Of a DNA stretch of 64,000 nucleotides, positions 8,667 to 49,473 are shown one piece after another. A model generated the notes under the pieces. The model was not told where the DNA came from, did not search any database, and saw only the letters and a list, made by a program, of their open reading frames with translations. The stretch is from Thiomicrorhabdus sediminis (lineage in GTDB: Bacteria > Pseudomonadota > Gammaproteobacteria > Thiomicrospirales > Thiomicrospiraceae). A program made the position numbers and the translations under genes. The number at the start of each line of letters is the position of its first letter. Position 1 is the stretch's first letter. The stretch lies in the NCBI RefSeq assembly GCF_005885815.1, contig NZ_CP040602.1, positions 2,247,630-2,311,629 on the forward strand, in the 5' to 3' direction.

Positions 8667-8776
8667 AGAAAAGAATTGTTGCTGAACTAAATCCACAAAA
8701 CCGATGCCAATGACCGAACAAAAATGCTACCCGTTTGGCCACAAAAAATAAAATTAACATATTTCAAAAATAATAT

Positions 8777-8806
8777 TTGACAGTTCCCCCCCCCCCTCTA
8801 TAAAAT
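8777..8806 (+). promoter_or_regulatory. Orphan tRNA-Phe promoter (left copy)
   Basis: TTGACA at 8777-8782 and TATAAA at 8799-8804 match the promoter in front of the intact tRNA-Phe at 49352-49380. Here the spacer is replaced by a run of eleven Cs (8786-8796). It now drives only a truncated tRNA. Confidence 0.6.
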
Positions 8807-8811
8807 ACGCC

Positions 8812-8861
8812 CCATCTGATTTAGGCCTGATAGCTCAGTCGGTAGAGCAAGGGATTGAAAA
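8812..8861 (+). repeat. Left attachment repeat (attL)
   Basis: These 50 bases are identical to 49386-49435. They span 12 bases of leader and the first 38 bases of tRNA-Phe, up to the anticodon loop. Similarity to the right copy, with mismatches, extends upstream through the promoter. Confidence 0.88.
8824..8861 (+). pseudogene. Truncated tRNA-Phe (5' half only)
   Basis: This is identical to the first 38 bases of the intact tRNA-Phe at 49398. It runs from the acceptor 5' strand through the D arm into the anticodon loop, then diverges at 8862. There is no T arm or 3' acceptor strand, so it cannot make a tRNA. Confidence 0.9.
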
Positions 8862-8911
8862 CCCTTTTAGAGCCAATAATATTAAAATAAATAAAAATAC
8901 AGATTATTATC

Positions 8912-8936
8912 AAAGCCCGTTTTTACGGGCTTTTTT
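8912..8936 (+). terminator. Rho-independent terminator after the orphan tRNA half
   Basis: The stem GCCCGT/ACGGGC has a TTTT loop and is followed by six Ts. It would stop transcripts from the orphan tRNA promoter before they enter the island. Confidence 0.85.
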
Positions 8937-9079: not shown

Positions 9080-12000
9080 ATGACAAAAATTGAGCAACTT
9101 TTACAGCACTTCTCTGAATCTGATAAGAGGCTGTTTCATCCTGTTATAGAAAAATTCACAGGTGGCAAAAACCCTCTTATTGCCCCAACACTTTCGCAGC
9201 TCCACAAAACCTCTCGAACACTTCTTCAGATTGCCCATGAAGAAAACGTAATACACTTCGATGAAACTGAACTAAACTTCATCAAAGCATTAAACAGCAA
9301 AAATACTGACTTGCTTTATGCCTTTGGGGAAAGAGGTGACACAAAGAAACAACACGCAATAGATCTCCGAAAATACCCGACCTACTATGCGTTAAACGCT
9401 CTGCACGAAAAAAGCCCTTTACTATTTCATGCCGTAACAAAAATCCTAGTCTGGAATTACGCGAATAATAACGAACTCATCCAGAGTAGAACCTCTTATC
9501 TCGTGGACACTCTGTTCAACCAAGAGCACCAAATCACTAACACGCTGTCCGAACTGATTAAAAGCCTTACTGAAAACAATGAGAACGCTGATCTTATTTT
9601 GATTGCTTCAAAAATCAGAAATGAAGCATTCCGAATGGCGCATGAACTTGATGATAACGAAAACAAGATTGCAGAAACCCTTGTCTACTTAATTGATCAG
9701 GCATTTTCGTCTCATCAAGCACAAAACCCAGATTTGCTTGAACCAGCCACCATTACTGAGAACGATACTCAAGATTCGCCTATCATTTTCAATCCTGCCC
9801 ACTCTCAAGAAGACAGCACTGAGATTGAAGACATTTCAATTGAAATAGTTCCAAAAGATGTTGCGGAAAAGTCCACGTACTATCAACGTGGATATGCACA
9901 ACAAACACAACTGAAGAACGCCAAGCGTGCTCAGTTTCTCGACAATGCCTCGGAAGTACTTACCAAGATTGAAAAAGAACACTTAATTTCCCTGGCGTTA
10001 GACGAAAATAGTGATGTGGCTTTTGCTGTTTTGTTTTCTCTGGCAACCCATGCAGAGCCGAGTTTTTGGTGGGACTGGCCTATTGGTTCGATTGATAAAT
10101 CGCCAAGCACTGAGTGCATAATCGATATTGATAAATTCCTGTGGAGACATCCTGTTTCACTTGGAAAACGCTTTTGGAAGCCGACCGAAGAACAAAAACC
10201 TTTCGTGCACCCTAGCCAACAATACATCACCCTTCCTTTAGCAACAGAACTGTGTGATTTTATCGCTAAACGAAGTAACTCAAATCAAACCCTAGGCCAA
10301 ATCCTTCATCTATCCAAAGATCAGATTAACGAGTCGTGTGATGTTTGGCTAAGGAAGAATATCGATTTTGGCCGCCGCATCACCATCTCCAAGGTTCGAA
10401 ATTTCCTCTACTGGCAAATCATGATTAACCGTTTTGACGAAACGGCCGCCAGTTTCATCTGTGCACAACCTATTTTACAAACGCCACAAGGCAATACCTA
10501 CACAAGCATTCAACAGACAGAACTTCAACGCATTTATACAGAAGCATTGCCACAACTGTCTTTTGGCATTGTACACACAGAATCTGACCCACTTATTGGA
10601 AGCAACTTGTTAGCAAAGGAATCATACCTGAAAGAGGTATTTAACCAGCTTGCCAACACCTCAACTGAAAAGGTCATTTCTGCCAATACAAACCCCTCGC
10701 TATCCAATCTGATAGACGCTCATAATGCACTCACAAGCTACTGCATTATGTTTGGACTTCTGGTGACTGCTCACCGTCCAAACATAGATCCATTTGCCCG
10801 TTATGCCGACATAATATGGGACATTCACAGCATAATGATTAGTGATAAAATCGTGAATGAAGGACATGCTACCAGAGTGGCTATTTTTTCCAGCTCTTTT
10901 AAAATCCAGTTAAAACGATATACAAAGCATCTTGTCGAACTTGCTGAAAGACTCCAGGCTTTTGACTATGTCGATGAAGCCAATCAGGTGATGGATCTTC
11001 TATGCGTTACTACGCCCAAACACCTCCCATTTTTCTTCTACCTGTCATGCGGTGACGAACAACTAACATTTCAAAGCGTATCAGAAAAAACGTTAACTGA
11101 GTACATCCCTGACTTTCAACTTCCTTTCAATTTTGGTCGACACTTTTTGTCATCCGTTTTACGCGATAAAAACATACCAGCTGAATTCATCAACTATCAG
11201 CTAGGACACCAAGGGCCAGGTGAAGAACCCTACAGTTCATCATCGCCATTATGCGCAGAAATGGTTTCTAAAGTTTTATTGTCCGTACTTGATGAAATCT
11301 GTGAACAACTAGAAATCAGAGCCATCCACGGCATTCAGACTAGCCAATCCGTTAAGCCCAAGGACACATCGAAAGCCAAAAAAGAGATTACCTTTGACTC
11401 AACTCATGAACTGGGCCCTATAAAACGAATCAAAGCATTTCGTGACTTAAAAAAAGCATCCCGAAAACTGGTAGCCACCGTGTTTCAAAATTACATTACC
11501 AGTCAAGAACACGACCTCCTCGAAGACAACCAAACCGTGATTCTCTCGGAAGCGGTTGACCGAATAGTTCAAGGCTCAAAAAACTATCTGGCTCAAAACC
11601 TGAAAGTATTTTCTTATCTACTAAAGCGCCATGCCAAAAAACACAATTTGAAAATCACCTTGCCAAACAAACTCCTCCAAATCAAAAACGAGGAGTCTCC
11701 TTTTGACTATTTGAGGTTACCGCTATGGCATAAAATGCGACTTGCCCGAGAAACATTTGTTAAATCGCTAGAAAGTACGGATTTTGAAAAGATTAGCAAT
11801 ACGGCCTTATGGGGCTACTTTTTCCTATCACTCATTCTGTTTTCGAGATTTACTCACAAACAGCGTTACCCTTTGATTGTTAACGCCATTCTAAGTGATG
11901 ACCTGTGGGGACATGAAGAAAAGCTTTATCTAGACTTAACAACGCGTGAAAACCAAGTACAAAGAATCGCCCTGGAACCCGTCACCGCGCTGCTGGCAAT

Positions 12001-14482
12001 CAAATTAATTGAGAGACGAAATTGTTCACCCCTCAAGCCCCTTTCGCTTTTACAGGTTCAAAAGACCATCGAAAAAACCTTAAGATCCGTTGTGCATGAT
12101 GAATCGATGACATTTAACGAGCTTATTACCGGCGCAGAAATGGATTGTAAACTCTTTATGCCGGGGATTTTGGCGGCTGTGCAATCCGGTGAAAGAAAGA
12201 CCGCATCTCTCAACAAAGAGAGTTTTTTACGCGTGGTCACGGACACGCGTCTTAACCTATATGAAGAAAAACAAAAGCACGCACCAGAGTCTAAACCTAA
12301 TCTTGAATTACTGTCGCTATTACCGGTTATTTCAAAACTGCCCTCTTCTCATCAGGATTATCAAACGCTGGAAAAGATGTTAAAAGGGTTCCGCAAATAT
12401 TTGAACGAGCCCGGACGACTTAATCGAAAAGAACTCACCACTAAAATTAGCTATGAGCTACACAGATTAAATACATTTGAAACGCCTCCACCACAAATCG
12501 TTTACTTAATCGGTATGTGGGCGGCAGAACGTTTAAATTCACCCGGGGAAAAAAAGGAATCACTCAGCTTCAGCACCGTATACGATTATTTTTTAATTCT
12601 GGATAGACGACTACTTGAACACTTCATGCATCGTGACGTACTCAGTGAAGAACTAGACAGCCTTATCGAGACCTATAACGCCATTATTCTTTCACATACT
12701 GACGAAGATCAGTCTTTGGCTGCCGCTCAGATTATCAATTTCCATAATCTGGTCTGCTCAAAATACTTAGGGCTTTCTGAAATCAGAAAAGACGAATTGG
12801 AATTCGCGAGCAGTCATCAAGAGGAAAGCATTGATGCAAACTTCATAACGATTGCTGAAAAAACCAAAATTGACAACTACTTAACCGCTAAAGACAGATA
12901 CTCTCATGATCTAGGGTTACAGTTTTCTTTGATTCTAACCTGCTATGCCAAGCTGGGGTTTCGCGCCAATGAACTCTTCAAATTAGAATCTCGAGATGTG
13001 ATTCACGCCAACCATGGATACAAAGGCTACTTCACCTGTAGACATAATCGCCACGGCAGACAAAAAAATGCCAACAGTCATCGCAATGTTTTTTCAACGG
13101 GGAAACTGACACCAACCGAAAGTGATGTGCTGCAAAAATGGATAACCATCAGAGCACCCCAATCTGCGGACCATTTTTGGATTTATGATTCCGATACCAA
13201 AGAACAAAATAAACTCGCTTTTCAACGCACCTTAACAGAAGCGGTTCGCATCATCACCGGAGATATTTCTTTATCTATCCGAAACTTGCGCCATACCGCA
13301 GCCACGCTTGAGTTTTTGGGATACTTTCAATATCTGAATGATTTTTTGAATAACCCAATTGATGACGTGTGTCATTCATTCCAGATAGATTCCTGGTATG
13401 AACAAGATGTTGCCAATTACATTAATGACCGATTTAAAAACACATACCCGTCAAGACGCTTTGCCTATCGCATCGCCCAGTTGTTAGGGCATGGCTCACC
13501 CTATACCACGCTAAAAAATTACTCTCATTTTTATGAGTTTGTCATACCGATGTTCCAACATCGTGGATTATCTGAGGTCACAAACCAAGCCATTGTGAAT
13601 CTCACCCCTGTTTATAAGATTGAGAATCTTCGCAATATAAAAAGCCGCATCGGCAAAAAAACCACATCAAACAAACCTGATATCCTCGCAAAGCAAGTGC
13701 TAAATGACGTGGCGCGAAAAGCCCTCTCGGGCTATCAAAATATTCACTCGGCAATCACTCCACTTCGTGCCAGAGGCAAACTGCCTCGGCCCGAGCCAGC
13801 TAATCGCCAACCCGATTTAAGCATTATTCAAATTTACGAAATACTTTGTCTACTTGCGCGCAATAATATCGATGACCTATTAATTGCAGAGCGATTTAAC
13901 CTCAGCCAACAACAGCTTACTCAACTCAAGGCGGACTGCCTCGAACTTTTTGAGCGTACCGGCCTGAATCCGGGAGATTGGCAAGGCGAAGATTTTGAAA
14001 GCCCGATGTCTTCAGAAGAGGGTGAGCCATTACCGAACGCGATGCCTTTGAAAGACTCTTTAAACCTGTTAAGCAAAATCAATACGTTGGCATGTGAAAA
14101 AGATGAGGAATTTACAACGCTCATACAACTGTGGGAACAGTACGTTCAGCCACAGAAAAACTTTTGGTTTTTCGAAAAACGCTTTCAGCAAACAGAGATG
14201 ATTCGATTACTCAACGAAGTAATCGATATACCGTGTGATTTGATTGTACTGACATCCGATGCCGAAGCGTTAAAAACAGTGAAAGAGGAACAATTTGAAG
14301 ACAGCATTCGCATTCGTTATGCAAAACGGGGCACGTCCTTACCTATCGCTCGCTTGCGTCAACCCCACTTGAACAAGAAAATCAAAGGCGTTGCCATCAT
14401 CAACCAGAATGACACGCGCTTTTTAAACAGTGAACTTAACCAAGTGTTTTTCTTAGCTCGCTTGAGACTCGATTGGCTCTAA
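9080..14482 (+). CDS. Giant protein with two tyrosine-recombinase-like catalytic domains
   Basis: This 1800-residue protein is far larger than ordinary tyrosine recombinases (300-450). The C-terminal catalytic domain (about 1260-1490) shows Arg1295 in FRANEL, Arg1404 in RNLRHTAA (the usual HxxR His is Arg1401), His1471 in LLGHGS and candidate Tyr1481. A second similar pattern occurs earlier: Arg566 in TAHRPN, a K/R-rich strand at SDKIVNEGHATR, Arg687-His688 in FGRHFLSS, His710 in QLGHQG and Tyr718. So it appears to be a tandem double recombinase, the first domain possibly degenerate. The N-terminal 400 residues and the last 300 are unassigned. It is the first island gene, beside the left att repeat, and its 3' end overlaps the convergent next gene by 30 bases. 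Presumed role: DNA rearrangement or island mobility. Confidence 0.75.
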   Translation: MTKIEQLLQHFSESDKRLFHPVIEKFTGGKNPLIAPTLSQLHKTSRTLLQIAHEENVIHFDETELNFIKALNSKNTDLLYAFGERGDTKKQHAIDLRKYPTYYALNALHEKSPLLFHAVTKILVWNYANNNELIQSRTSYLVDTLFNQEHQITNTLSELIKSLTENNENADLILIASKIRNEAFRMAHELDDNENKIAETLVYLIDQAFSSHQAQNPDLLEPATITENDTQDSPIIFNPAHSQEDSTEIEDISIEIVPKDVAEKSTYYQRGYAQQTQLKNAKRAQFLDNASEVLTKIEKEHLISLALDENSDVAFAVLFSLATHAEPSFWWDWPIGSIDKSPSTECIIDIDKFLWRHPVSLGKRFWKPTEEQKPFVHPSQQYITLPLATELCDFIAKRSNSNQTLGQILHLSKDQINESCDVWLRKNIDFGRRITISKVRNFLYWQIMINRFDETAASFICAQPILQTPQGNTYTSIQQTELQRIYTEALPQLSFGIVHTESDPLIGSNLLAKESYLKEVFNQLANTSTEKVISANTNPSLSNLIDAHNALTSYCIMFGLLVTAHRPNIDPFARYADIIWDIHSIMISDKIVNEGHATRVAIFSSSFKIQLKRYTKHLVELAERLQAFDYVDEANQVMDLLCVTTPKHLPFFFYLSCGDEQLTFQSVSEKTLTEYIPDFQLPFNFGRHFLSSVLRDKNIPAEFINYQLGHQGPGEEPYSSSSPLCAEMVSKVLLSVLDEICEQLEIRAIHGIQTSQSVKPKDTSKAKKEITFDSTHELGPIKRIKAFRDLKKASRKLVATVFQNYITSQEHDLLEDNQTVILSEAVDRIVQGSKNYLAQNLKVFSYLLKRHAKKHNLKITLPNKLLQIKNEESPFDYLRLPLWHKMRLARETFVKSLESTDFEKISNTALWGYFFLSLILFSRFTHKQRYPLIVNAILSDDLWGHEEKLYLDLTTRENQVQRIALEPVTALLAIKLIERRNCSPLKPLSLLQVQKTIEKTLRSVVHDESMTFNELITGAEMDCKLFMPGILAAVQSGERKTASLNKESFLRVVTDTRLNLYEEKQKHAPESKPNLELLSLLPVISKLPSSHQDYQTLEKMLKGFRKYLNEPGRLNRKELTTKISYELHRLNTFETPPPQIVYLIGMWAAERLNSPGEKKESLSFSTVYDYFLILDRRLLEHFMHRDVLSEELDSLIETYNAIILSHTDEDQSLAAAQIINFHNLVCSKYLGLSEIRKDELEFASSHQEESIDANFITIAEKTKIDNYLTAKDRYSHDLGLQFSLILTCYAKLGFRANELFKLESRDVIHANHGYKGYFTCRHNRHGRQKNANSHRNVFSTGKLTPTESDVLQKWITIRAPQSADHFWIYDSDTKEQNKLAFQRTLTEAVRIITGDISLSIRNLRHTAATLEFLGYFQYLNDFLNNPIDDVCHSFQIDSWYEQDVANYINDRFKNTYPSRRFAYRIAQLLGHGSPYTTLKNYSHFYEFVIPMFQHRGLSEVTNQAIVNLTPVYKIENLRNIKSRIGKKTTSNKPDILAKQVLNDVARKALSGYQNIHSAITPLRARGKLPRPEPANRQPDLSIIQIYEILCLLARNNIDDLLIAERFNLSQQQLTQLKADCLELFERTGLNPGDWQGEDFESPMSSEEGEPLPNAMPLKDSLNLLSKINTLACEKDEEFTTLIQLWEQYVQPQKNFWFFEKRFQQTEMIRLLNEVIDIPCDLIVLTSDAEALKTVKEEQFEDSIRIRYAKRGTSLPIARLRQPHLNKKIKGVAIINQNDTRFLNSELNQVFFLARLRLDWL

Positions 14483-15412
14483 AAAAAGATCCGACTGAGG
14501 ATCATTGTTATGATTTAGGTTCGCCTCATAGATCTCCATTGCCTCGCCCTTACCAAAAGAGAAAAACACCTCTTTGGGGGTAATCTTTCGATTTTTGCCA
14601 TTACCAGCATTCAACTGCTCCAAGTTGGAGAAAGAAATGTCAAATGGGCGGCTCGCAAGCAAATGGGCACAAAACATCGCACTATGATTTTTGTTGCCAA
14701 AGGATAAAGGTATCAATAACTTTCTGGTGTACCCATTGGTATCTTCAATTTCAATTTCGGCTGTGCTTTTTTGAATACCGATAATATTTGCCTTATAGCA
14801 TTCTTGATAGAAATCAAAACTGGCGATTTGCGAAATTTGCTTTATTCTGCTGCTCGTCAAATTGGTTATCAAAGGCTGGTCTGTATTGGGCGCACAAAGA
14901 CCAAGGCTTTCAATTTTCTTTAAACTTGCTTCATCCCGAATCAAGCAGCTTTTACTCTTGATTTCTTCGAGCTTTTCATTCATCTCTAAAGCAGCCCCAT
15001 CTGAACTGCTTTCAGCATCAAATTCATTGGCGATTTTCGCCACCTCTTCCATCAATTGAAACTCGAGATCCTTCAAATCTTGGTACTGCTCTTCTACCGA
15101 TCCCCAAAGATCTCCTTGAAATTTAAGTACCTGAAATTCGACGTCTGCAATACTGGTTTGCGTGTCGATAAATGCAACAATTTTTCCCTTCTGAAAAGCT
15201 TTACCATCATTAGGGTCTGGCAACTTCATAGCTTCTATGAGTTTCAAAAAGAGATGTTTCATCTGCCTGACTTCCTGATTAGAAATGGCATCCATCTCCT
15301 TAACACTCATCACGTAAAGAACCTTTCCATCGTCTGCAGGCATAAAATCGGTGGGCACCGAAATCTTCTCTAAGACCCTATATGAAACTGTATTTTCCAC
15401 GTATCGAATCAC
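14453..15412 (-). CDS. Hypothetical protein, 319 aa, convergent with the giant recombinase
   Basis: I do not recognise this protein. It starts at a GTG preceded by AAGG. No signal peptide or membrane helix is apparent. A charged helical stretch at about residues 95-150 may be a coiled coil. The C-terminal part (about 180-310) looks like mixed alpha/beta. Its last ten codons overlap the end of the recombinase gene on the other strand, so the two genes have been kept tightly together. It could be a partner or antagonist of the recombinase, which is inference from position only. Confidence 0.6.
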   Translation of the reverse strand: MIRYVENTVSYRVLEKISVPTDFMPADDGKVLYVMSVKEMDAISNQEVRQMKHLFLKLIEAMKLPDPNDGKAFQKGKIVAFIDTQTSIADVEFQVLKFQGDLWGSVEEQYQDLKDLEFQLMEEVAKIANEFDAESSSDGAALEMNEKLEEIKSKSCLIRDEASLKKIESLGLCAPNTDQPLITNLTSSRIKQISQIASFDFYQECYKANIIGIQKSTAEIEIEDTNGYTRKLLIPLSFGNKNHSAMFCAHLLASRPFDISFSNLEQLNAGNGKNRKITPKEVFFSFGKGEAMEIYEANLNHNNDPQSDLFLEPIESQAS

Positions 15413-16533: not shown

Positions 16534-17091
16534 TTATTTTTTTCTTAACTTTCGCATTGACTCTCCTTTGAATTCAATGCGATATGAACCTCCTGTTATC
16601 CTATCTAAAATTGCGTCAGCAGCGGTTGGATTACCAGAAGATAAATAGTCGTGCCATTTACTCATAGGTAACTGGCTGGTGACAATTGTCGATTTAGTTG
16701 TTGATCGGCTATCGATAATTTCTAGCAAATCTCCTCGTCCTTGGGTATTAATTGGTGAAACACCGAGATCATCAAGAATCAGTAAATCGACCTTGGTTAA
16801 CTTTGCCAATTTTGAATGGAAAGTTCCGTCCACATGAGCTAATTTGAATTCCTCAAGTAAAATTGGAAGTCTCTGAAAGCTAACTTTCAATCCTTCTCGA
16901 CAAGCTTTTTCACCAAGAGCACAAGCTTTCCATGTCTTCTCTGTACCAGCGGGTCCTGTCAGAACAAGATCAATTCCATGCTTTAGCCATTCAAGATCTT
17001 TTAATCCTTCCACCATTGGGCAAATAAAAGAGACACCTTGTAAGGCTATATCCTGCTTTAATGACGTCACCAACAATAAAAGCCGTTTCAA
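16534..17091 (-). pseudogene. istB: IstB-like ATPase of an IS21-family element, 5'-truncated
   Basis: The 185 residues match the ATPase and C-terminal part of IstB, the helper of IS21 transposition. Seen are LILDDLGVSP (Walker B), VTSQLPMSKWHDY, ADAILDRITGGSYRIE and GESMRK. About the first 70 residues of the family are missing, and Walker A reads GPAGTEKT where the family has GxGKT/S. The frame now opens with a TTG that lies inside a yeeE relic, so the truncation point is a junction. No istA is present. It is therefore a dead IS21 fragment. Confidence 0.88.
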
Positions 17092-17950: not shown

Positions 17951-20278
17951 TTAAATCTTTACTCTTTTTAACCTTAATGCATTGGCGATTACAGATACAG
18001 AACTAAAACTCATCGCTGCCGCTGCAATTATTGGTGAAAGCAGCAAACCAAAGAAGGGGTAAAAAACTCCAGCAGCAATCGGAACACCAGAAGCGTTATA
18101 GATAAAAGCAAAGAATAAATTTTGGCGGATATTCTTCATCGTAGCGCGGCTCAATTTATGCGCTCTTACAATGCCATTTAAATCACCTTTAACCAACGTT
18201 ATAGTGGCGCTCTCCATTGCTACATCGGTTCCCGTTCCCATAGCGATACCTACTTGTGCTTGGGCTAAGGCCGGCGCATCATTCACACCATCCCCTGCCA
18301 TGGCAACAACATACCCCTCATCCTGAAAACGTTTTATCCAATTCGCTTTATCCTCTGGTAACACCTCCGCTTCAATTTGGTCGATGTTGAGCTTACGACC
18401 CACTGCATTTGCCGTGTCTTGGTTATCTCCGGTCAACATCACAACCTTTATACCTTCCGCATGAAGTGAATTTATCGCCTCTTGCGTTGTGTTTTTGATC
18501 GGGTCAGCCACAATCAACATTCCGGCAAACACTTCATCAATTGCAACAAACATCACGGTTTGACCTTGTGATCGATAATCCAAAATAGCTTTACTTAAAT
18601 GACCGAGTTCAATATTGATGGATTCCATAAATTTTTGATTACCAATCGCTACAGTCTGACCATTAACATTGCCCGATACCCCTTTACCTGTAACAGATGA
18701 AAAATCTGAGACTGGACTGAGCTTTATTGCTTCCTGCTCTGCTGAATCTACAATTGCTTCTGCCAATGGGTGCTCACTTGCTCTTTCCAAACTAGCCGCA
18801 AAATGCAAAACCTCCTTTCTTTGATAGCTTGATTCCACTTCCACCGCAACCAACTTGGGTTTTCCCTCTGTAAGGGTGCCCGTTTTGTCCACAACCAATA
18901 AGTTAACCTTTTCCATCATCTCTAAGGCTTCTGCATTTTTGATGAGTACTCCGTACTGTGCACCAAGTCCAGTACCCACCATAATAGACACAGGGGTAGC
19001 TAACCCCAGAGCACAAGGACAAGCAACAATCAATACTGTAACCGCACTCACTAATGCATAGGCCAAACTCGGATCTGGACCAAACGCCCACCAAGCAAAG
19101 AAAGCAACAATTGCAATGATTACAACAACAGGAACAAAATAAGAGGAAACGATATCCGCTAAATTTTGGATAGGGGCTCTAGAGCGCTGTGCATTAGCGA
19201 CCATCTCAACTATTTGAGAGAGCAGAGTATCCTTCCCCACTTTTTCAGCCTTCATTAACAAGCTACCGGAGCCATTAATCGTCGCACCAATCAAATTATC
19301 ATTAACGGACTTTTCAACGGGAATGGGTTCCCCACTGACCATCGACTCATCTACGAAACTCTTTCCTTGAGTCACAAAGCCATCTACGGGCACTTTATCT
19401 CCCGGTTTGACTCTTAAAATGTCACCAACTTTGATCTCAGTTAATGCCACTTCTTTTTCAGTTCCATCCTGCTCTAATCGCCAGGTCGTATTGGGCGCTA
19501 AACCTAATAACTTTTGGATTGCTTGATTGGTTTTTGATCGAGCTTGCAATTCGAGAACCTGCCCTAACAGAACCAATGCGGTAATCACCGCTGCCGCTTC
19601 GAAATAAACATGTACCAAACCAGCTTGAGACTGCATATCAGACGGGAAAACATGAGGAAGAAGTAGCGCAACCACGCTATAGGACCATGCAACGCCCACG
19701 CCAATCGAGATTAACGTGAACATATTTAGGTTCCAGGTTTTTATAGAATTCCATCCCCTAACAAAAAAAGAAAGCCCTCCCCAGATCACTACAGGAGTAG
19801 CTAAAATGAACTGAACCCACTGAATCTGACGAACATTTAAACTAGCAGGTAAGGTTTCAGGAAATAAATCCATCCACATTGCCAGAATAAATACGGGAAC
19901 AGAAAATAAAGTACTAACCCAAAAACGACGTTTCATATCTTTGAGTTCAGAAGCCTCCCCTGTACTTTCAGACAAACCAGTCAGGATGGGCTCTAGCGCC
20001 ATTCCGCATATCGGGCAGTTACCTGGATGATCTTGCACAATTTCATGATGCATTGGGCAGGTATAGCTCACCGGACTGCTATTGGAAATACTTGCTGATA
20101 TCCTTTGTTCAGAAAGGTATTTTTCTGGATGATGAATAAACTTTTGTTGGCAGCTCTCACCACAGAAATAAAATGTCTGTCCTTGAAAATTATGAGAATA
20201 CTTATCATCACGAACCCTCATTTCACATACAGGATCAATGAATGTTTTTTTTGTACTTGATCGCTGAGACGTCATCAT
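17951..20278 (-). CDS. copA: Copper-exporting P1B-type ATPase
   Basis: This 775-residue inner-membrane pump exports Cu(I) from the cytosol. Domains in order: a YHS metal-binding domain (about 15-55, DPVCEMRV and YFCGESCQ), a heavy-metal-binding domain (about 72-100, YTCPMHHEI...[10 protein letters not shown]), then the ATPase core. The core has the membrane CPC motif ([11 protein letters not shown]), the phosphorylated Asp464 in [19 protein letters not shown] and [10 protein letters not shown]. Late-helix YNASGVP and MSFSSVSV match the copper (IB-1) group. It lacks a classic N-terminal CxxC HMA domain. It follows the SHOCT gene in the same-strand copper operon. A silver role is also possible. 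Confidence 0.93.
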
Positions 20279-20337
20279 AATTTTCCCCTCATCTATCTGT
20301 GCTAACTGGTTTTAAATCACGCATTACTTCTAAGCAA

Positions 20338-20553
20338 TTAAGAGAGAAGTGTTTTTTTCTGCTCCTCAAACTCTTCTTTTGTAATCTCTCCTTTTGCATA
20401 GCGCTTTTTTAATATTTCAAGAGCCGATTCTGAATCACCACGTTGCTGAAAAATCACCTTGAGGCCTATAAGTACTAATACAATTAAAATTAACCAGAAT
20501 ATCCACATATGCCCTCCCATAAAGTTCAGCATAGACTCGTCATAAAATTCCAT
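20338..20553 (-). CDS. Small membrane-anchored SHOCT-domain protein
   Basis: This protein of about 71 residues has one transmembrane helix (MWIFWLILIVLVLIGLKVIF) and a C-terminal SHOCT motif (ALEILKKRYAKGEITKEEFEEQKKTL). The ATG at 20553 has GGGAG eight bases upstream; an in-frame start at 20568 is less likely. Such small proteins commonly accompany CopA-type ATPases and multicopper oxidases. SHOCT is thought to mediate oligomerisation. The exact role is unknown. Confidence 0.8.
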   Translation of the reverse strand: MEFYDESMLNFMGGHMWIFWLILIVLVLIGLKVIFQQRGDSESALEILKKRYAKGEITKEEFEEQKKTLLS

Positions 20554-20592
20554 AAAGCAACTCCCCATAGTTGATACATTTAAGCTATTGAC

Positions 20593-22101
20593 CTACACCA
20601 CAATAAATTGCCCCATCATTCCCGCATCTTCATGTTCCAAAATATGGCAATGGTACATATAAGCATCAGATGAACTTGAATATGGGCCTGTTGGCAACAA
20701 AATTTTTACCGTTTCATCCTTATGAACGGTTACAGTATCTTTTAATCCCAATTCCCATGAAAGTGGAGGCTTTCCATTTCTTTCAAGCACTTTGAATTGT
20801 GTGTTATGTACATGAAAAGGATGGTGCATCATGGAAGGGTTTTGCAGTTCCCAGATTTCAAAGGTGTTTACTTTGAGTGTTTCGTTAACGACATTCATAT
20901 CCCAGCTTTGCCCATTGATAGAGAAACCGCCGTTACCAAACATCATTTGAGGACCCATTTGCATTTCTAAATTCATTTTTCGAGTTTGGGCGACTGCTTG
21001 ATTAGACCAATCTGGAAGTGGAACAAGCTGGCTAAGAGTTTTAGCTTTAACCCGTTCCGAGTGTCTAGGATCGATATGCATTAAATCGAATGTTTGATCT
21101 AAGTTTCCACGATCCATGCCTCTCATCATACCCATTGATAGGTTTCCGTAACCTTTAATTGTACGCAGAGATATGGACTTTCGATCAGATAAATCAACAA
21201 TGATTTCCGCTCGTTCAGATGGTGCCAAACGCACTCTATTAGTCGTGATGGCTTGGCTCAAAAGGCCGCCATCAGTGGCAATTAATTCAAATGGTCTTAA
21301 ATCAGAAAAAACCAGGTCATAAAATCTCGCATTAGACGCATTGTGTAGGCGGAGGCGAATGCGGGTTTTCTCTGGTTCCAGTACAGAGTTAGCAACTCCA
21401 TTAACTAGCATTACGTTACCATGCATTCCTTGCATTTTATTCATGCGCTGATTGTTGTAGTAGAATTCTCCTGCTTCATCAAATGAACGATCCATTATGA
21501 TGACAGGATAATCATCAACGCCATATTCATGCGGTAGGTTTAATGCTTTATCACGTTCCTCATCAATAATTTGCATTTGTCCGCCAAGGCCCTTCCAGAC
21601 TTGCACACCGGTTTTATGGTGAGTATGAGAGTGATAAAAAAGAGTGGATGGTTCATTAATCACTTTCCATTCAGCATTCCAAGTTTTGTTAGGTGCAATT
21701 TCTTGATGCGGGCCTCCGTCCTCACTAGCCGGCAGAATCATCCCGTGCCAATGCAATGCAACAGGTTCATTGAGTTGATTATTGACTTGCATTTGTATGG
21801 TTTGCCCTTTTTTCATTTGAAGGACGGGGGCAAGGAATGGTTGGTTGATACCTAATGTCTGAGTTGTCGTGTCAGGCAGGATGCGAGTTTCACCCTGCTG
21901 TATTTTTAATTTAAAGACCTGTTTGCCATGATCACTTTCGCCTCTTTCAACAGGTGGTAAATTGAATGTACGCAATGGAAATTTTGCGGTTAAAAATTCT
22001 GTGTCGGCAGAAGGTTGAGCACTTATTCCAGAACTATTTAAGCCTGTTAAAATGCCTGCTGCTGTAGCAAAGCTCTTAGTAATAAAGTCACGTCTTTTCA
22101 T
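20593..22101 (-). CDS. Multicopper oxidase, Tat-exported
   Basis: This 502-residue periplasmic oxidase oxidises Cu(I) to the less toxic Cu(II), using O2. A twin-arginine signal opens the protein (MKRRDFITKS). All copper-site boxes are present: HWHGMI (about 118), YHSHTHH (about 155), HHPFHVH (about 430) and YHCHILEHEDAGMM near the C-terminus. It resembles the CueO/McoC group more than PcoA. It lies between the cytochrome c and SHOCT genes in the operon. It is the second multicopper oxidase there, the other being CopA at 23409-25454. Confidence 0.92.
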   Translation of the reverse strand: MKRRDFITKSFATAAGILTGLNSSGISAQPSADTEFLTAKFPLRTFNLPPVERGESDHGKQVFKLKIQQGETRILPDTTTQTLGINQPFLAPVLQMKKGQTIQMQVNNQLNEPVALHWHGMILPASEDGGPHQEIAPNKTWNAEWKVINEPSTLFYHSHTHHKTGVQVWKGLGGQMQIIDEERDKALNLPHEYGVDDYPVIIMDRSFDEAGEFYYNNQRMNKMQGMHGNVMLVNGVANSVLEPEKTRIRLRLHNASNARFYDLVFSDLRPFELIATDGGLLSQAITTNRVRLAPSERAEIIVDLSDRKSISLRTIKGYGNLSMGMMRGMDRGNLDQTFDLMHIDPRHSERVKAKTLSQLVPLPDWSNQAVAQTRKMNLEMQMGPQMMFGNGGFSINGQSWDMNVVNETLKVNTFEIWELQNPSMMHHPFHVHNTQFKVLERNGKPPLSWELGLKDTVTVHKDETVKILLPTGPYSSSSDAYMYHCHILEHEDAGMMGQFIVV

Positions 22102-22111
22102 AGTGTTCTCC

Positions 22112-22597
22112 TTACTTTAGGCCGCCACGGCTCAGCCAAGCCTGATAAATTTCGTCTGACCAAAAATTTTGGAAATAAGCAATCGCTTGCAATCGCTCTG
22201 TTTGCGATAATTTATCTTTGAATCCCGGCATAGTGCCTCCCAAAGGAATGCCACCATAGACAATGGTACGATTGAGAATTTTTAAAGGGTGATGCCAAGC
22301 GTGCGCGGAACCATTTAAAGGTGGTGCTGGGTATTTGCCATTATCCAGAGTTTGTTTCCAATCTTTCACCAGACCTTGTGCCTGATCTCCGTGGCATGCT
22401 GCACAATTGGCTAAGAATACTTTTTTACCCATTTGTACATCTGTAGTTGAATACCATCGTTTTGTTGTTTCTTTTTCAGAATAAACGGTACTGTTATTAG
22501 CACTACTAGTATCATTTTCGGATGATTTCGATTGTGTGTTTGTATCTGTACAAGCAGACAATAAAGAAGTACTTAAAAGAATAAACAAGTATTTCAT
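22112..22597 (-). CDS. Lipoprotein cytochrome c
   Basis: This 161-residue protein has a lipobox (LLSAC) after a short hydrophobic signal. One haem c site reads CAACHG at about residue 68, and a candidate axial Met lies in GTMPGF. It ends ten bases before the downstream multicopper oxidase gene. A membrane-tethered cytochrome here could pass electrons from copper oxidation to the respiratory chain. That role is inferred. Confidence 0.88.
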   Translation of the reverse strand: MKYLFILLSTSLLSACTDTNTQSKSSENDTSSANNSTVYSEKETTKRWYSTTDVQMGKKVFLANCAACHGDQAQGLVKDWKQTLDNGKYPAPPLNGSAHAWHHPLKILNRTIVYGGIPLGGTMPGFKDKLSQTERLQAIAYFQNFWSDEIYQAWLSRGGLK

Positions 22598-22666
22598 ACA
22601 ATTTCCTTAGACTTGTATAAGTTAAGGAAGCTTTAGTTTTTACAGCCTCCTTAACCGAATAAAAAA

Positions 22667-23383
22667 TTAGAACCAGAAACGAACCCCAGCGACTAAGCTG
22701 GTTTCTTGTTCCTTACCGCCTTCAGCCTTGACATAGTCTGCTGTTGTGCCAAAGAATTGGTTGTAGGTCAAACCAATATAAGGCGCAAATTTACGGGTGA
22801 TTTCGTAACGCAGACGTAAGCCTATATTTAGGTTGGATAACCCCGAACCTGTGCCCATTTTTTCGTTATCAAAAGAATATGCACTTAGCGCAATACTAGG
22901 CGTTAAAATCAGCTTTTGAGTGAATAACGCCTCATATTCCGATTCTAAACGAATCCCCAGGCCATCAGAGTTTGCCAATAAAAGCGCATTGGTTTCAAAG
23001 AAGTAGGGAGCAAGACCTTGCAGACCAATAGCAGCCCAGGTTTGGTTGGCTTCAGGTGCCGTGTCATAAGCCAATCCCAGTTGTAAATCCCAAAACTTTT
23101 CTACGGGTGTTGAATACAGCAGTTGGTTTTCAGATTCGTTCTGCCCTTGAACGCTTTCACCTTCGGACTTGAGGTATAGCTTATGCCAGTCTTTACCTAC
23201 CCATGCGCTTGCCGCCCAACCTGTCGGGTTGTTTTCCTGATTGCTTATTTCCAGGTTATCCACGATTAAAGAGGCCAGTAATGGATCTCTTTCGCCGCCC
23301 GCTTGGGCAATCCCTGTTATCAAAGTTGTTGCAAAAAATGCTTGAATCAAAATAGAAACTGGTTTTTGAATTAGATTTTTCAT
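22667..23383 (-). CDS. copB: Copper resistance outer-membrane protein CopB
   Basis: This 238-residue protein has a signal peptide (cleavage after GIAQA) and a predicted outer-membrane beta-barrel. The family ending YIGLTYNQFFG...LVAGVRFWF terminates in Phe. It lacks the Met/His-rich N-terminal segment that many CopB proteins carry, so it is a short form. CopB works with CopA to sequester or move copper at the cell surface. The gene is 25 bases downstream of the copA oxidase gene. Confidence 0.9.
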   Translation of the reverse strand: MKNLIQKPVSILIQAFFATTLITGIAQAGGERDPLLASLIVDNLEISNQENNPTGWAASAWVGKDWHKLYLKSEGESVQGQNESENQLLYSTPVEKFWDLQLGLAYDTAPEANQTWAAIGLQGLAPYFFETNALLLANSDGLGIRLESEYEALFTQKLILTPSIALSAYSFDNEKMGTGSGLSNLNIGLRLRYEITRKFAPYIGLTYNQFFGTTADYVKAEGGKEQETSLVAGVRFWF

Positions 23384-23408
23384 GATTTCATCCCTTTTAT
23401 TTCACCGG

Positions 23409-25454: not shown

Positions 25455-25574
25455 GACCTAACTCCTTAAAAACAAAAGTAAAAAATTACAATTCAATGTT
25501 TTAAGGCGAAAGCAGAGTTTTTGCTAAACGATATTTAGGTATACGTTTAGGTTAATCTTAGGTTTCTCGCCTTG

Positions 25575-25952
25575 TTAGGCGATAGAGGAAGGTGGAGGGG
25601 TTTCAGGTTTAGTGAAACGTGTATTGAATTCGAATACTTGCGGTTCAACGTTAGAAACAACAGTAGTTTCATTAAGCCCAGCAGGATTAAGATTATTTAG
25701 ATAAATTGTTGAGCTGTGAAGAGAGAGACACAAAACATCGACACAAGAATCTGTGCAGCAACTCTGAACATGCGTCACGTCACTATTAAAATGCATACAT
25801 CCAACGTCTTTAGGCATATCTTGCATATTTGTATGCATCATTTGCATTTGCATTTTTTCCGCGCCATTAATCATGGACATATCTATCCCAGCCCATGCTG
25901 AACCAGCAAGGCTTTGAATGAGAAATAACATGATTAGGAACTTTTTAAACAT
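25575..25952 (-). CDS. Small secreted Met/Cys protein (CopL-like position)
   Basis: This 125-residue protein has a signal peptide ending AGSAWA. A Met-rich run (MQMQMMHTNMQDMP) and four or five Cys residues (GCMHF, SCCTDSC, LCLSL) follow. The tail is proline-rich (ETPPPSSIA). It is the first gene of the copper operon, where CopL-type proteins are often found. The metal-binding composition fits that, but sequence identity to CopL is not established here. Its overall design (signal, metal-binding residues, PPP near the end) resembles the His-rich protein at 27752-28123. Confidence 0.65.
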   Translation of the reverse strand: MFKKFLIMLFLIQSLAGSAWAGIDMSMINGAEKMQMQMMHTNMQDMPKDVGCMHFNSDVTHVQSCCTDSCVDVLCLSLHSSTIYLNNLNPAGLNETTVVSNVEPQVFEFNTRFTKPETPPPSSIA

Positions 25953-25989
25953 GATGTCATCTGAGTTATATGTTTATTATTAAATTCTA

Positions 25990-26017
25990 ATACTACTCTT
26001 TTTGATTTAATAATCAA
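25990..26017 (-). promoter_or_regulatory. Candidate promoter of the copper operon
   Basis: On the minus strand, TTGATT (26017-26012) and TAGTAT (25995-25990) are 16 bases apart, about 40 bases upstream of the first gene. I see no clear dyad typical of CueR or CopR sites. Confidence 0.4.
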
Positions 26018-26069
26018 GAGCTTTAAACGTAGCATTCTGCAACAGGGCTCTTTTAGTTTTGTTAAAGTC

Positions 26070-26215
26070 TAATAGTACTAGGCTCCTAATCATAGTTGAA
26101 CATGAACAGCCTGTTTATGCCGAGTAAAACCAACAATATCGATCAGTTATATAAAATTGCTCAGAAATCTCACGTCCGTAATCCCCTATATTTTTATTTA
26201 CAGATGAGAGCTAAT
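26070..26215 (-). pseudogene. Relic of a DUF6428-type gene (first copy)
   Basis: On the minus strand the DNA aligns with the larger relic at 40863-41411. It contains YGREISEQFYITD (against DGRVIPTQFHITD) and, after an internal deletion of about 70 bases, TRHKQAVHVQL (against TRHEQAVHFQL). Several stops interrupt it. It lies between the copper operon promoter and the IS30 element. Confidence 0.7.
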
Positions 26216-26241
26216 TGAGTTCAAAGTGTAACCAAATAAAT

Positions 26242-26294
26242 AGCAATAGGTGGGGAAATTAAAACAGCAAACTCTGGATACCTCAATGCAGCAA
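26242..26294. repeat. AGCAA motif repeated at exact 24-bp spacing (copy 1)
   Basis: AGCAA occurs at 26242, 26266 and 26290. The same spacing recurs beside the other DUF6428 relic at 41445-41497. Regularly spaced short repeats are typical of IS21-family termini, where they bind transposase. No complete IS21 element is present. Confidence 0.55.
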
Positions 26295-26454
26295 TACTAT
26301 GTGCCTTTAAACGCTAATACTCAGTTTTGGACAAAAGAGTATAAAATACGTGAAAGTGCTTCAGTTTGAGGTCTTATTTATCAGATGAGGCATTCATCCG
26401 CCAGAAATGGTTCCTAGCACGGTTTGGGAATTAAAGAGATTACTCAAGTCTTCT

Positions 26455-26492
26455 AAAAAGCACTTAGCCAGTATTGGCAAGGGCTTTTTCTT
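26455..26492 (+). terminator. Possible terminator before the IS30 element
   Basis: AAAAAGC...TTGCCA-type imperfect hairpin (AAAAAGCACTTAGCCA/TGGCAAGGGCTTTTT) followed by Ts. The stem has mismatches. Confidence 0.45.
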
Positions 26493-26512
26493 TTTTGACT
26501 GAATCTTTTGAA

Positions 26513-27601: not shown

Positions 27602-27707
27602 ATTAAATTTGGCAGATAAAATGCTTCTAGTGTTATCAGGCCTTACCAGAAATTGATTGGCTATCTAGGGCGACTCCAATAAAAATTTTTATTTTTTAAA
27701 AAATTGC

Positions 27708-27716
27708 TGTTATAAT
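27708..27716 (+). promoter_or_regulatory. Extended -10 promoter for the His-rich/RND operon
   Basis: TGTTATAAT (extended -10 TGn plus perfect TATAAT) lies 35 bases upstream of the ATG at 27752. The -35 region is T/A-rich and weak. Confidence 0.5.
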
Positions 27717-27751
27717 CCTGAATTGAATAGACAAATGATATTTATTGCGTC

Positions 27752-28123: not shown

Positions 28124-28303
28124 TTTCATAACAAAACACACCCTTGCCAAGACTGAATAGTTTTAGGTTATAGCGTTTATAACTTAATTAATCAGCATTT
28201 CATTCAAGAGCACAACAGAGCTTTGCTATTTGTCAAAATAACGACAATCAAGGCGGCTTAATGCTCATGGCAAAAAATACTAATTGTTAATTATGAGGCC
28301 GTT

Positions 28304-46034: not shown

Positions 46035-46982
46035 TCAATTCAAACGGTTTAGATAATGCTTATTACAACCAATACTCAGCTCCGCAAAATGGAAGTAATC
46101 CGGCTTGTCCTGAAAAGCCATACTGTTTAATGATGCCGATGTACTTAAGCGGTCTGCCATCTTGATAGCATTGCCTGTGACATAGCGGCACATTCCTTGA
46201 GATTCTTTCCAGGTCAACAGATACTGCAAAGCCTCAGCTCCTGACTGCCAATACTCCTGTAAGGTGTTAAGAGGTTCTGCAAGCATCATTAACGTGAATT
46301 GTTCATGATCGATAAGCCGTCCTGCTGAGGTATGTTGAATAAGCCCCAGTGTTTTAACTTTGCCGATATCATGAAAAAGTGCGGCCACCACGGCGACTTC
46401 TTTTTCTTTAGTTGAGATATCCAACAAAGCCTCCACCGTCTGCTTGGTCATAAACGCGCACTCCAACGAGTGCATCAACAATCCTCCTGGAAAGCTGTGA
46501 TGATGCCGCTTACTCGCCGGGATACTGACAAAAGTGGTCATTAATGAAGTATCCATCAAGACTTCTCTGGCAAACATGCGCAGTGGAATGACTTGCAGGC
46601 TCTCAATGAGGTCAAACAACTGATATAACGATCCAAAGTCATAACAGGCTTGATAGATGGGGAATAACTGCTCAAGTGTTAAGGTGCTTTTAAATAGACG
46701 CCAATTCAAAGCCATTTCGTTCGCATCTAACTCCACCCAAAGATATAAAGACTCGGTACTTTGTAGATGCAAGCTCTCGTAACGCTGACAGATCGAGCTG
46801 TAGAGTTGATTATCGACATTAATATAGTGCGTTAGGTGATCTTGGTCTATCAGGCTGACCTGACACCAACCGTAATCCGAACATCCTAAGTCGTGTCCAA
46901 AAACACCCGCATAACCAAGACGCTGCTTTCCTTTACCAACCTGCAAGTGGTTTTGTTCGCTATATGTGATGATAGGCTTCAT
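46035..46982 (-). CDS. HD-domain protein of the TraI_2/MobH-like type
   Basis: This 315-residue protein has a C-terminal HD hydrolase domain (about 145-300) with HHHSFPGGLLMHSLE and ALFHDIGKVKTL. The combination HHxxPGGLLxHSLE is seen in the TraI_2 domain of MobH-type relaxases and in YhaM-like exonucleases. The N-terminal half is unassigned. Its start overlaps the stop of the 107-aa gene by four bases (ATGA), and it is the last gene of the integrase operon. A nuclease or nucleotide phosphohydrolase role in element transfer is inferred. Confidence 0.78.
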   Translation of the reverse strand: MKPIITYSEQNHLQVGKGKQRLGYAGVFGHDLGCSDYGWCQVSLIDQDHLTHYINVDNQLYSSICQRYESLHLQSTESLYLWVELDANEMALNWRLFKSTLTLEQLFPIYQACYDFGSLYQLFDLIESLQVIPLRMFAREVLMDTSLMTTFVSIPASKRHHHSFPGGLLMHSLECAFMTKQTVEALLDISTKEKEVAVVAALFHDIGKVKTLGLIQHTSAGRLIDHEQFTLMMLAEPLNTLQEYWQSGAEALQYLLTWKESQGMCRYVTGNAIKMADRLSTSASLNSMAFQDKPDYFHFAELSIGCNKHYLNRLN

Positions 46983-47302
46983 TGATACACCTCCATCATT
47001 AACTGGTCTTTCAATCGGCTAATCAAGGTATCCAGTGCATCATCGGCATTCTGGATACCAGAAAGCTGCTCATAGACCCATAGCTGTAAAGCCTTTTTAT
47101 TGGTTGAGCATTCACCATGACCCAAGACAAAGGTTAAATAATCGCCGTCATGAATCTTAAACAGATACATCAGGTTGTTGACCAATCTATTAACGACTCT
47201 AGGGTCTTCTATCGGATAGACGCCCTCCTCTGAAAACGGGTTAGTGATAGATGGATGCTGTCGTGTTAAAAATGGGGTTTGAATTAGATTACGGTTCATC
47301 AT
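46979..47302 (-). CDS. Hypothetical 107-aa protein between integrase and HD genes
   Basis: I do not recognise this small soluble protein. It overlaps the integrase stop and the HD-protein start by four bases each, so all three are translationally coupled. It has no signal, membrane helix or Cys motif. It is probably an accessory of the recombination module. Confidence 0.65.
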   Translation of the reverse strand: MMNRNLIQTPFLTRQHPSITNPFSEEGVYPIEDPRVVNRLVNNLMYLFKIHDGDYLTFVLGHGECSTNKKALQLWVYEQLSGIQNADDALDTLISRLKDQLMMEVYQ

Positions 47303-48609
47303 AGCGTACCTCCAAAATGAGATGGATTACCTGGATTAAGAAACTGATCCCAAAAAGCCGATTCTTCGGCTTCAGCTTGATTTAGATCAACTTCATCACT
47401 GACGGTAATAGTCGTATCTTCTGTGTCTTCCTTTTTCCCTTGACCATGAAAGCCGTCAATATTGGAAGCAAGCAGCCGTTCCATTGCCGAGCCATCTTTT
47501 CGCGTCAAGTTCGGCACATAACGCGCATAGACACTAAACAACATGGTGGTGGTACTATGCCCCATCTGTTTGGCAATCCAGTTTGGGTTTTCACCCGCGG
47601 CCAACCAAAGGGTGGCAGCGGTATGACGTGTTTGATATGGCTTGCGATATTTGATCTTGAGATAGGCCAATAAAGGCGTCCACACTCGTCTTAAAAAATT
47701 AGGTGTATGAACCGGAGAGCCGTTATTGGCGTAAAACACCAAGTCGGACTCTTTATTTCGGTTTTTATACCGATCTTTAAGACAGTTAAACACTAATGTC
47801 GACATTTCTATCTCTCGTTGAGAACCATCATTTTTGGTGTATTCCCAGCGTCCCATAGAAAAGGTTTCTCTAACGAGAATCTCCCGCCGTTCAAAATCGA
47901 CGTTTTCCCATTTGAGGCCATCAATCTCACCGGTACGCATGCCGGTAAAGAACCGGACTAACAGATAGTCCCGCCAATCCGGTCGTACACTGGCTAAAAT
48001 CAGATTCACCTCTTGAATAGAAAAAGGATCAATATGCACCTTTTCTTCTTTAAGTGGTTTGATATTGAGATGAGGTGGCGTAAAATTGAATCGGTCAGCC
48101 GCTTCATTCATAATCATATTAAGACACTTAATAAACTTGTTAATGGTCTTAGGCTTTAACTTACCGTCCGATTGTTTGGCGACGTTAGAACGGTATTTTA
48201 AAATGTCACTTTTGGTGATTTGGCTGACTTCCATTTTTCCAAAATGGGGAATCAGTCGACTTTTCAAATACCGCCAATAAGTCTCTGCGGTCGATTTTCG
48301 CCATGTTGGCTCCATTTCAGAAAACCACTCTTTGGCAAAATCCTTAAACAAAGGTGTTTCTCTATAACCTGGCCGCTGTCTAGCTTCAATCTCTGCTAAT
48401 TTTTGCACCATAGGACTATTCGGAAAATATTTTCCATATTGAAACGCCCCCAAAGTAATCTCCGCTTGAATACGCTCCATAATCATTTCTAACTTTTTAC
48501 GGTTAGCTTTTGTGTCTGGTAAAGAGGTATATTCACGACACCGATTTTTACAATATTGGAAATCAAAATATAAATTTCCGGTATTCGATTTAACTCTTAT
48601 TTTTGCCAT
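47299..48609 (-). CDS. int: Phage-type tyrosine integrase of the island
   Basis: This 436-residue enzyme has an N-terminal arm-binding region (about 1-60), a SAM-like core-binding domain (about 85-170) and a catalytic domain (about 185-380). Catalytic features are Arg in FTGMRTGEIDGLKW, PYQTRHTAATL (Arg box of the tRNA-targeting integrase group), MGHSTTTMLFSVYARY (His and nucleophile Tyr). Its gene lies about 0.8 kb from the right att repeat. It most likely catalysed insertion into tRNA-Phe. It heads a coupled operon with the 107-aa and HD genes. Confidence 0.92.
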   Translation of the reverse strand: MAKIRVKSNTGNLYFDFQYCKNRCREYTSLPDTKANRKKLEMIMERIQAEITLGAFQYGKYFPNSPMVQKLAEIEARQRPGYRETPLFKDFAKEWFSEMEPTWRKSTAETYWRYLKSRLIPHFGKMEVSQITKSDILKYRSNVAKQSDGKLKPKTINKFIKCLNMIMNEAADRFNFTPPHLNIKPLKEEKVHIDPFSIQEVNLILASVRPDWRDYLLVRFFTGMRTGEIDGLKWENVDFERREILVRETFSMGRWEYTKNDGSQREIEMSTLVFNCLKDRYKNRNKESDLVFYANNGSPVHTPNFLRRVWTPLLAYLKIKYRKPYQTRHTAATLWLAAGENPNWIAKQMGHSTTTMLFSVYARYVPNLTRKDGSAMERLLASNIDGFHGQGKKEDTEDTTITVSDEVDLNQAEAEESAFWDQFLNPGNPSHFGGTL

Positions 48610-49253: not shown

Positions 49254-49351
49254 AGTCTTCATGTCAAAACCCACTGAAGACAAGACAAAACGTCTCCAAT
49301 TTGTCCCTTTTTTGTCCCCAACAATTATTTATAAAAATAGCGAAATAATAT

Positions 49352-49380
49352 TTGACAGTCGCGAAGCCCGTCTATACAAT
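49352..49380 (+). promoter_or_regulatory. Promoter of the intact tRNA-Phe (right copy)
   Basis: TTGACA (49352-49357) and TACAAT (49375-49380) are 17 bases apart, ending 17 bases before the tRNA. It lies on the island side of the right repeat, so the element supplies this promoter. Confidence 0.75.
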
Positions 49381-49385
49381 ACGCT

Positions 49386-49435
49386 CCATCTGATTTAGGC
49401 CTGATAGCTCAGTCGGTAGAGCAAGGGATTGAAAA
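49386..49435 (+). repeat. Right attachment repeat (attR)
   Basis: These 50 bases are identical to 8812-8861 and end in the anticodon loop of the intact tRNA-Phe. Crossover must lie within this block. Confidence 0.88.
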
Positions 49436-49473
49436 TCCCTGTGTCCCTGGTTCGATTCCAGGTCAGGCCACCA
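49398..49473 (+). tRNA. tRNA-Phe (GAA)
   Basis: The 76 bases form a full cloverleaf. The acceptor stem pairs GGCCTGA with TCAGGCC, the anticodon loop is TTGAAAA with anticodon GAA, the T loop is TTCGATT, and CCA is encoded. It is the target site of the island. Confidence 0.97.

Follow-up and report, generated by a model that had tools for sequence, protein, structure and literature searches.

The window (the whole 64,000-nucleotide stretch of Thiomicrorhabdus sediminis DNA that was analysed) contains a copper-resistance island of about 40.6 kb, at about 8865–49438, inserted in the anticodon loop of a tRNA-Phe gene. Beginning 215 bp inside its left end, an open reading frame with an ATG start, no internal stops and the exact ends given in Table 1 encodes P1, an 1800-residue product whose two modules, A and B, have tyrosine recombinase (TR) folds; an ordinary integrase, Int, lies at the opposite end. 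With an intact tRNA gene at one end, its cognate fragment at the other and an integrase inside, the whole has the organization of a tRNA-integrated genomic island. Its cargo at 17951–34042 comprises copper and heavy-metal genes (for a copper P-type ATPase, multicopper oxidases and CusA/CzcA-type efflux). Also in the island are the remnant of an IS21-type element, an IstB-like ATPase (16534–17091, minus strand) matching positions 80–235 of the 238-position family model, and two overlapping minus-strand frames (41573–44425 and 44391–45320) that jointly cover the defence protein Dsr1 (SIR2) and so represent a split version of its gene, the 309-residue frame matching positions 8–284 of the model and the 950-residue frame positions 308–1215.

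Table 1. Features of P1, the island ends and adjoining genes (positions in the window)
Feature	Position	Strand	Description
attL	8768..8864	+	tRNA-Phe promoter region and 5' half; tRNA nt 1–38 at 8824–8861 exact; 90% identical to right copy
Terminator-like hairpin and T run	8912..8936	+	Between tRNA fragment and P1; read by eye; within sub-threshold Trp_leader match (E 0.94)
P1	9080..14482	+	1800 aa; modules A (TR fold) and B (complete TR) naturally fused in one chain
Module A, TR fold	10598..11317	+	Residues 507–746; R566, K590, R687-H688, G709-H710; Y718 present in P1, unconserved in family
Module B, core-binding domain	12491..12817	+	Residues ~1138–1246; XerH, XerA and lambda Int structure matches begin at model residues 341–349
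Module B, catalytic TR domain	12818..13555	+	Residues 1247–1492; R1295, K1329, R1404-H1405, H1471, Y1481
C	14453..15412	-	Convergent 319-aa ORF overlapping P1 3' end; L015 has a relative in the same place (23% identity)
TraI_2/HD-domain protein	46035..46982	-	Adjoins integrase; also near tRNA-Phe in G007, G008, G015, G030
Int	47299..48609	-	Ordinary arm-type tyrosine integrase (Arm-DNA-bind_2, Phage_int_SAM_3, Phage_integrase); near attR
attR	49343..49438	+	Right copy of 97-bp repeat; promoter region and 5' half of intact tRNA-Phe
Intact tRNA-Phe (GAA)	49398..49473	+	Right end of island

The left copy of the terminal repeat holds a truncated tRNA-Phe whose nucleotides 1–38 are identical to those of the right copy, and joining the flanks after nucleotide 38 restores an intact tRNA-Phe at the empty site, the left end alone giving none. 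Together, these observations place the crossover within the anticodon loop TTGAAAA, which the stem arms AGGGA and TCCCT enclose, or adjacent to it, with AGGGA-TTGAAAA-CCCTT as the model attP. The promoter region of the left fragment includes a run of 11 C (8786–8796) that is absent from the right copy. The flanks show partial synteny with other genomes at the tRNA-Phe locus: a sibling (G025) has window genes 1–2442 upstream of its tRNA-Phe, and three genomes (G015, G008, G009) have the right-flank genes downstream of theirs, while the tRNA-Phe loci of G014 and G021 had no close flank genes. The USP gene at the left edge of the island was rejected as an anchor for the empty site, tRNA-Phe lying beside it in none of 13 sibling regions, so that the left-flank synteny depends on one sibling. 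A search for repeats around P1 itself found weak pairs only, and no clear ends of its own.

The original prediction, of one polypeptide with two TR catalytic domains, one of them perhaps regulatory, was sound as regards the frame and its folds. Two AlphaFold2 models, built from alignments of P1 with its relatives (A6, nine rows; A7, 10 rows), are weak overall (mean pLDDT 49.8 and 57.8) but have confident TR cores. In VIA-align comparisons of these models, the best match to module A is 4a8e (Z 13.6, rmsd 2.7, 166 residues aligned, model 507–746), and that to module B is 5jk0_A (Z 14.4, rmsd 12.7 over two domains), or, for the catalytic domain of B alone, 5u91_E (Z 13.4, rmsd 3.3, 179 aligned). 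The matches of module B include XerH, XerA and Cre, with Z of 13–14, its core-binding domain preceding the catalytic one. For A and B alike, the table of 50 rows consists of TRs or type IB topoisomerases in 48 cases and of SroF of phage phi3T in the remaining two. Foldseek alone gave module A a single match under E 0.001, to XerA (8e-4).

Sequence profiles were less informative. Profile comparison with solved chains linked B to an archaeal XerC-like protein (E 1.5e-7) and A only to XerD (E 0.31). HMM searches of the sequence libraries recognized the C-terminal half alone, which gives weak matches to Pfam Phage_integrase (residues 1285–1409, E 0.0017) and to integrases in PHROGs (E 0.0065); NCBIfam and PADLOC yielded no families for P1 up to E 1. 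Aligning A with B by hhalign was uninformative. Two further stretches, residues 255–424 in A and 883–1060 in B (window 9842–10351 and 11726–12259), resemble, in predicted topology and in motifs read by eye, degenerate N-terminal subdomains of TRs, but we dropped them as additional TR folds after profile searches of solved structures found no TR there and hhalign of both alignments gave nothing.

Which residues has the family kept? Counts were made on 35 A and 33 B sequences, including the window protein and the members used to build the profiles. The residues singled out beforehand are where they were said to be (R566, R687-H688, G709-H710 and Y718 in A; R1295, R1401, R1404, H1471 and Y1481 in B), and module B has a TR fold with the full R-K-H/R-R-H-Y set: R1295 and K1329 occur in 33/33 sequences, and R1404, H1471 and Y1481 in 32/33, with one gap each. 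It is true of P1 that Arg1401 stands in place of the usual His of HxxR, but 28 of the 33 sequences have His. In module A, R566 (33/35), K590 (34/35), R687 (35/35), H688 (30/35) and H710 (35/35) are conserved, and column 718 has W in 14 sequences, Y in six, F in five, H in three, A in two, Q, G, E and L in one each, and one gap. Since the pocket residues are retained and the Tyr718 column is mostly something else, A in most members looks, on this alignment, like a pseudo-recombinase whose phosphate pocket is intact, though P1 keeps the tyrosine. Thus two TR folds in one chain, one perhaps non-catalytic, are borne out by fold and conservation, and P1 does have a tyrosine in both; as a family trait, however, two catalytic domains are not supported, the A tyrosine being absent from 28 of the 34 sequences with a letter there.

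Relatives of P1 with conserved residues in both halves (as judged from alignments) were found in eight of 95 relative genomes searched, its own included; a first scan of genome contigs with P1 had found none. The relatives known by name are Thiomicrorhabdus marina, Hydrogenovibrio sp. SC-1 and Thiomicrospira microaerophila. The A profile matched 13/62 genomes of the family and 19/369 of a class-level sample (the window's own genome being in both). Relatives also occur on plasmids, in Ketogulonicigenium and Vibrio cyclitrophicus, with a B relative in 232 Acinetobacter records. Phage records gave no matches, and viral contigs searched with alignment A5 gave no relatives. In most relatives A and B are separate neighbouring genes, so covalent fusion is not general. 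Wherever both were mapped, the two share a strand, with A upstream of B and the pair adjacent or overlapping (one small ORF intervenes in the L020/L084 pair); loci with A or B alone are mostly at contig ends. A and B share one ORF in the window and in L016, L017, L072, L073, L074 and L076, and partly in L070. In a tree of 34 A modules (L074 was dropped by the coverage filter), fused members occupy three places (window/L016/L017; L073/L076; and L072 beside the split L075), with supports of 0.91–0.997, and the split L015 sits inside the first group; on this tree, fusion or fission of A and B happened several times. The L015 split falls at about P1 residue 1056–1104, a different point from that in other pairs, and would be either a later fission or a draft error.

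The surroundings of A recall the left end of our island. In a BLAST comparison of the 2 kb upstream of A with 35 tRNAs, nearly all from the window's genome, 35 entries were tried (L020 being entered twice), of which 31 with at least 1500 nt upstream were counted, together with 225 control blocks from the same loci. tRNA genes or fragments were detected in 15/31 entries against 2/225 control blocks (Fisher 5e-14, the entries not being independent), and none in the other 16. Among the 15, L066 has only an intact tRNA, and in L020 a single fragment is seen from both sides. Leaving aside these two and a second, outward-facing fragment in L018, each fragment's end towards A lies at nucleotides 27–51, mostly 27–41. 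The tRNAs involved are those for Phe, Arg, Val, Asp and Met, with 5' fragments of tRNA-Phe also in G007, G030, G008, L019, L020 and L084. By eye, L070 has a tRNA 3' half upstream of A that the BLAST missed. In L018 (4980–5330) the A gene is preceded by 3' halves of both tRNA-Asn and tRNA-Val, perhaps scars of successive islands.

The tRNA represented by the A-side fragment was expected, intact, near Int. It was found there in G059 (Phe) and G047:C4 (Arg tct), and not in G015 (Val), G172:C2 (Arg) or the G047:C20 stretch (Phe). In Aeromonas caviae, where Int, B and A are grouped, the 3' half of a tRNA-Asp lies past A and the intact tRNA-Asp 46 kb away; the latter marks the far end, 37 kb from Int, rather than lying beside Int. 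tRNA-Phe adjoins Int in G033, G051, G056 and G047:C28, where the A-side fragment was unavailable; tRNA-Arg(acg) does so in G074, and G012 has a tRNA-Arg fragment only. The Int stretches of G304, G084 and G115 contained no tRNA.

With homologues of Int defined at E 1e-20, Int is present in 12 of the 13 A-bearing family genomes and in none of the 49 without A (62 genomes; Fisher 6e-12, uncorrected for phylogeny). It lies on the opposite strand about 2–37 kb beyond B in G000, G008, G012, G015, G030, G033, G059 and G047:C4, and 58 kb from an A remnant in G051. At class level, 10 of the 18 other A-bearing genomes were tried; five (G115, G304, G172, G084, G074) have a nearby TR convergent with B, in every case matching Int, and none was found in the other five (G203, G231, G282, G218, G068), contigs ending there in G203 and G068. 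Int is also convergent with, and near, A-B in Aeromonas. In four plasmid A-B loci (L026, L091, L092, L093), the stretch fetched contained no homologue of Int, and no tRNA fragment lay within 2 kb. Around a tRNA-Phe fragment in G047:C20, Int and A point away from each other, as would be expected of attP or of a tandem. The same contig holds two equal-scoring copies of one A-B pair (L020/L084). One copy is arranged head to head with another A-B pair, a tRNA-Phe fragment lying between them; the other copy and Int diverge, with a second fragment of this kind in between.

Which of the two goes with the target? Among seven tRNA-Phe islands (21 pairs), Int, compared as the whole protein, is 70–94% identical (mean 78), against 17–71% (mean 27) for A and 15–79% (mean 30) for B, both compared over profile columns of the catalytic domain. 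The window and G030 differ in this way (Int 82, A 19, B 20), and the other 99 pairs average 49, 21 and 22, respectively. Int, not A-B, therefore goes with the tRNA-Phe target, and this is the strongest result against A-B being the integrase itself; an earlier candidate role for A-B, as a tRNA-Phe-specific integrase, is made unlikely by this comparison and by the presence of an ordinary Int. On these identities, A-B either evolves very fast or swaps between islands.

The usual working unit of tyrosine recombinases is a tetramer of equivalent single-domain subunits, of which half are active at any one time. The island ends at tRNA-Phe and the second, ordinary integrase change what P1 most likely does from what was first supposed: the likely role of A-B would be that of a partner recombinase in island integration or excision. 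We favour, with middling confidence, the view that P1, in which two TR-fold modules are fused as a pair, belongs to the recombination locus of a tRNA-anticodon-loop island and works with Int. In the circular island the A-B and Int genes would be divergent and flank attP, and integration would put them at opposite ends. A-B would bind the inverted repeat of the anticodon stem around the 7-bp loop (TTGAAAA), B serving as the catalytic recombinase, having the residues needed to cut and rejoin, and A holding the other half-site through its conserved phosphate-binding pocket, in most relatives with no nucleophile to offer. Linkage of A to B would place one live subunit and one dead one at each site, and with Int might make strand exchange asymmetric (confined to one strand) or limited to one direction, for example excision. 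The two folds, the conservation of residues, the ends of the island, the tRNA restored at the empty site and the genomic linkage with Int are observed; action of A-B on att DNA, the one-strand mode and the division of labour with Int are inferred. Against this reading are the tracking of the target by Int, the four plasmid loci, the 16 entries lacking a fragment, the expected tRNA missing in three stretches and far-placed in Aeromonas, the presence of Tyr718 in P1, and a left-flank synteny that comes from one sibling.

Another reading gives A-B the role of an att-bound regulator (of directionality or immunity, or excluding competing islands at the same tRNA), Int alone integrating and excising the island. 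This would account for the extreme divergence of A-B where Int is conserved, and is favoured by the completeness of the arm-type Int and its closeness to attR, by the target following Int, and by A adjoining an att end in many loci; but the full catalytic set of B, with its almost invariant tyrosine, would be needless in a mere binding factor, and we consider this alternative possible and less probable than a partnership of A-B with Int. An elaboration of that partnership is more doubtful still: P1 might be a pre-wired live/dead hetero-pair, imposing asymmetry on the synapse and limiting exchange at tRNA anticodon loops to a single strand (copy-out-like); the pair would be a swappable module found in islands together with a conserved Int, different in layout from SEs and GInts (discussed below), and fused more than once.

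Could both domains of P1 be catalytic, making it a true double recombinase? P1 has every residue of the A set, Y718 included, and two of its three clade-mates (L015 and L017) have Tyr in that column too, but the third (L016) has Phe, Tyr occurs there in so few of the family, His and Tyr are spaced by 8 in A but by 10 in B, and residues 706–729, around Y718, have pLDDT below 50 in the module A model, all of which makes this improbable. Least probable of all is that A-B forms an element of its own, lodged at one end of an island with an ordinary integrase, as the plasmid pairs might suggest, for all 12 Int-bearing family genomes have A, A is close to tRNA fragments in different lineages, and the repeats around P1 are weak.

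The closest working analogy to a partnership of A-B with Int is provided by SEs, in which, as far as the available text describes, an ordinary TR, a TR-fold protein lacking the nucleophile (Tfp) and a large TR are found in one mobile element, in an intA-tfp-intB operon; circle junctions were not formed in knockouts of intA, intB or CDS4 (srap), and deletion of tfp was not achieved (PMC10214605). The differences are that A-B stands apart from a convergent Int, so that the window lacks the intA-tfp-intB-srap gene block; that Tfp is reported to be without the RHRY motif, whereas A keeps R-K-R-H-H; and that SE sites carry a 6-bp footprint, in place of the tRNA anticodon loop seen here (PMC10214605). 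The A and B profiles gave no significant HMM scores with SE proteins, and hhalign of A with Tfp and of B with IntB was weak, as it was between A and B themselves. GInts (ginABCD) likewise have several TR-related proteins, three of them, one being incomplete (GinC), reported as essential together; the gene order here does not correspond to their four-gene operon at one end of the element, as described in the available part of that account (PMC5385486). Nor do the sizes and residues of A and B correspond to those of RIT elements, described in the available text as three TRs of 315–410 residues, all with the catalytic tyrosine (PMC10214605). The tRNA islands catalogued by Islander resemble ours in having an integrase, an intact tRNA gene and a displaced fragment, and the part of that account available recognizes anticodon-centred sites as a known class and gives 5' fragments in 159 of 3919 islands (PMC4383910); our island differs in having a second, paired recombinase system at its other end. 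A literature search on fused or tandem TRs found nothing relevant. The words 'inactive', 'fusion' and 'degenerate' are absent from PMC8138268, and the available part of a paper on Hydrogenovibrio islands makes no mention of the A-B system (PMC6501319).

Multi-recombinase islands are a known kind, and what is new here is the natural fusion of an active recombinase with a usually inactive one. A partner that mostly lacks the nucleophile, retains the pocket, and in several lineages is in one chain with an active B offers a direct test of strand bias or direction imposed by dead subunits. P1 belongs to a widespread, poorly annotated, putative partner system of tRNA islands: Ketogulonicigenium has both genes labelled 'hypothetical protein', and the two Acinetobacter plasmids examined have A as 'hypothetical'. 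The family suggests that some tRNA islands carry a second recombination system missed in annotation.

The Gamma-mobile-trio, of which GmtX and GmtZ are members, resembles this system in being a multi-gene recombinase locus in Gammaproteobacteria. The name Gamma-Mobile-Trio appears in the parts available of PMC12715929 and PMC12259885, and the family name GmtY is given by NCBIfam. None of 25 A or B members matched the NCBIfam Gmt models at E 0.01, and hhalign of A with the protein in the GmtZ position was uninformative. A gamma-mobile-trio-like operon does occur in L103 (G172:C9, 7519–12173), with ORFs of 441, 908 and 200 residues and GmtY scoring over the NCBIfam cut-off, and the same genome also carries two A-B loci.
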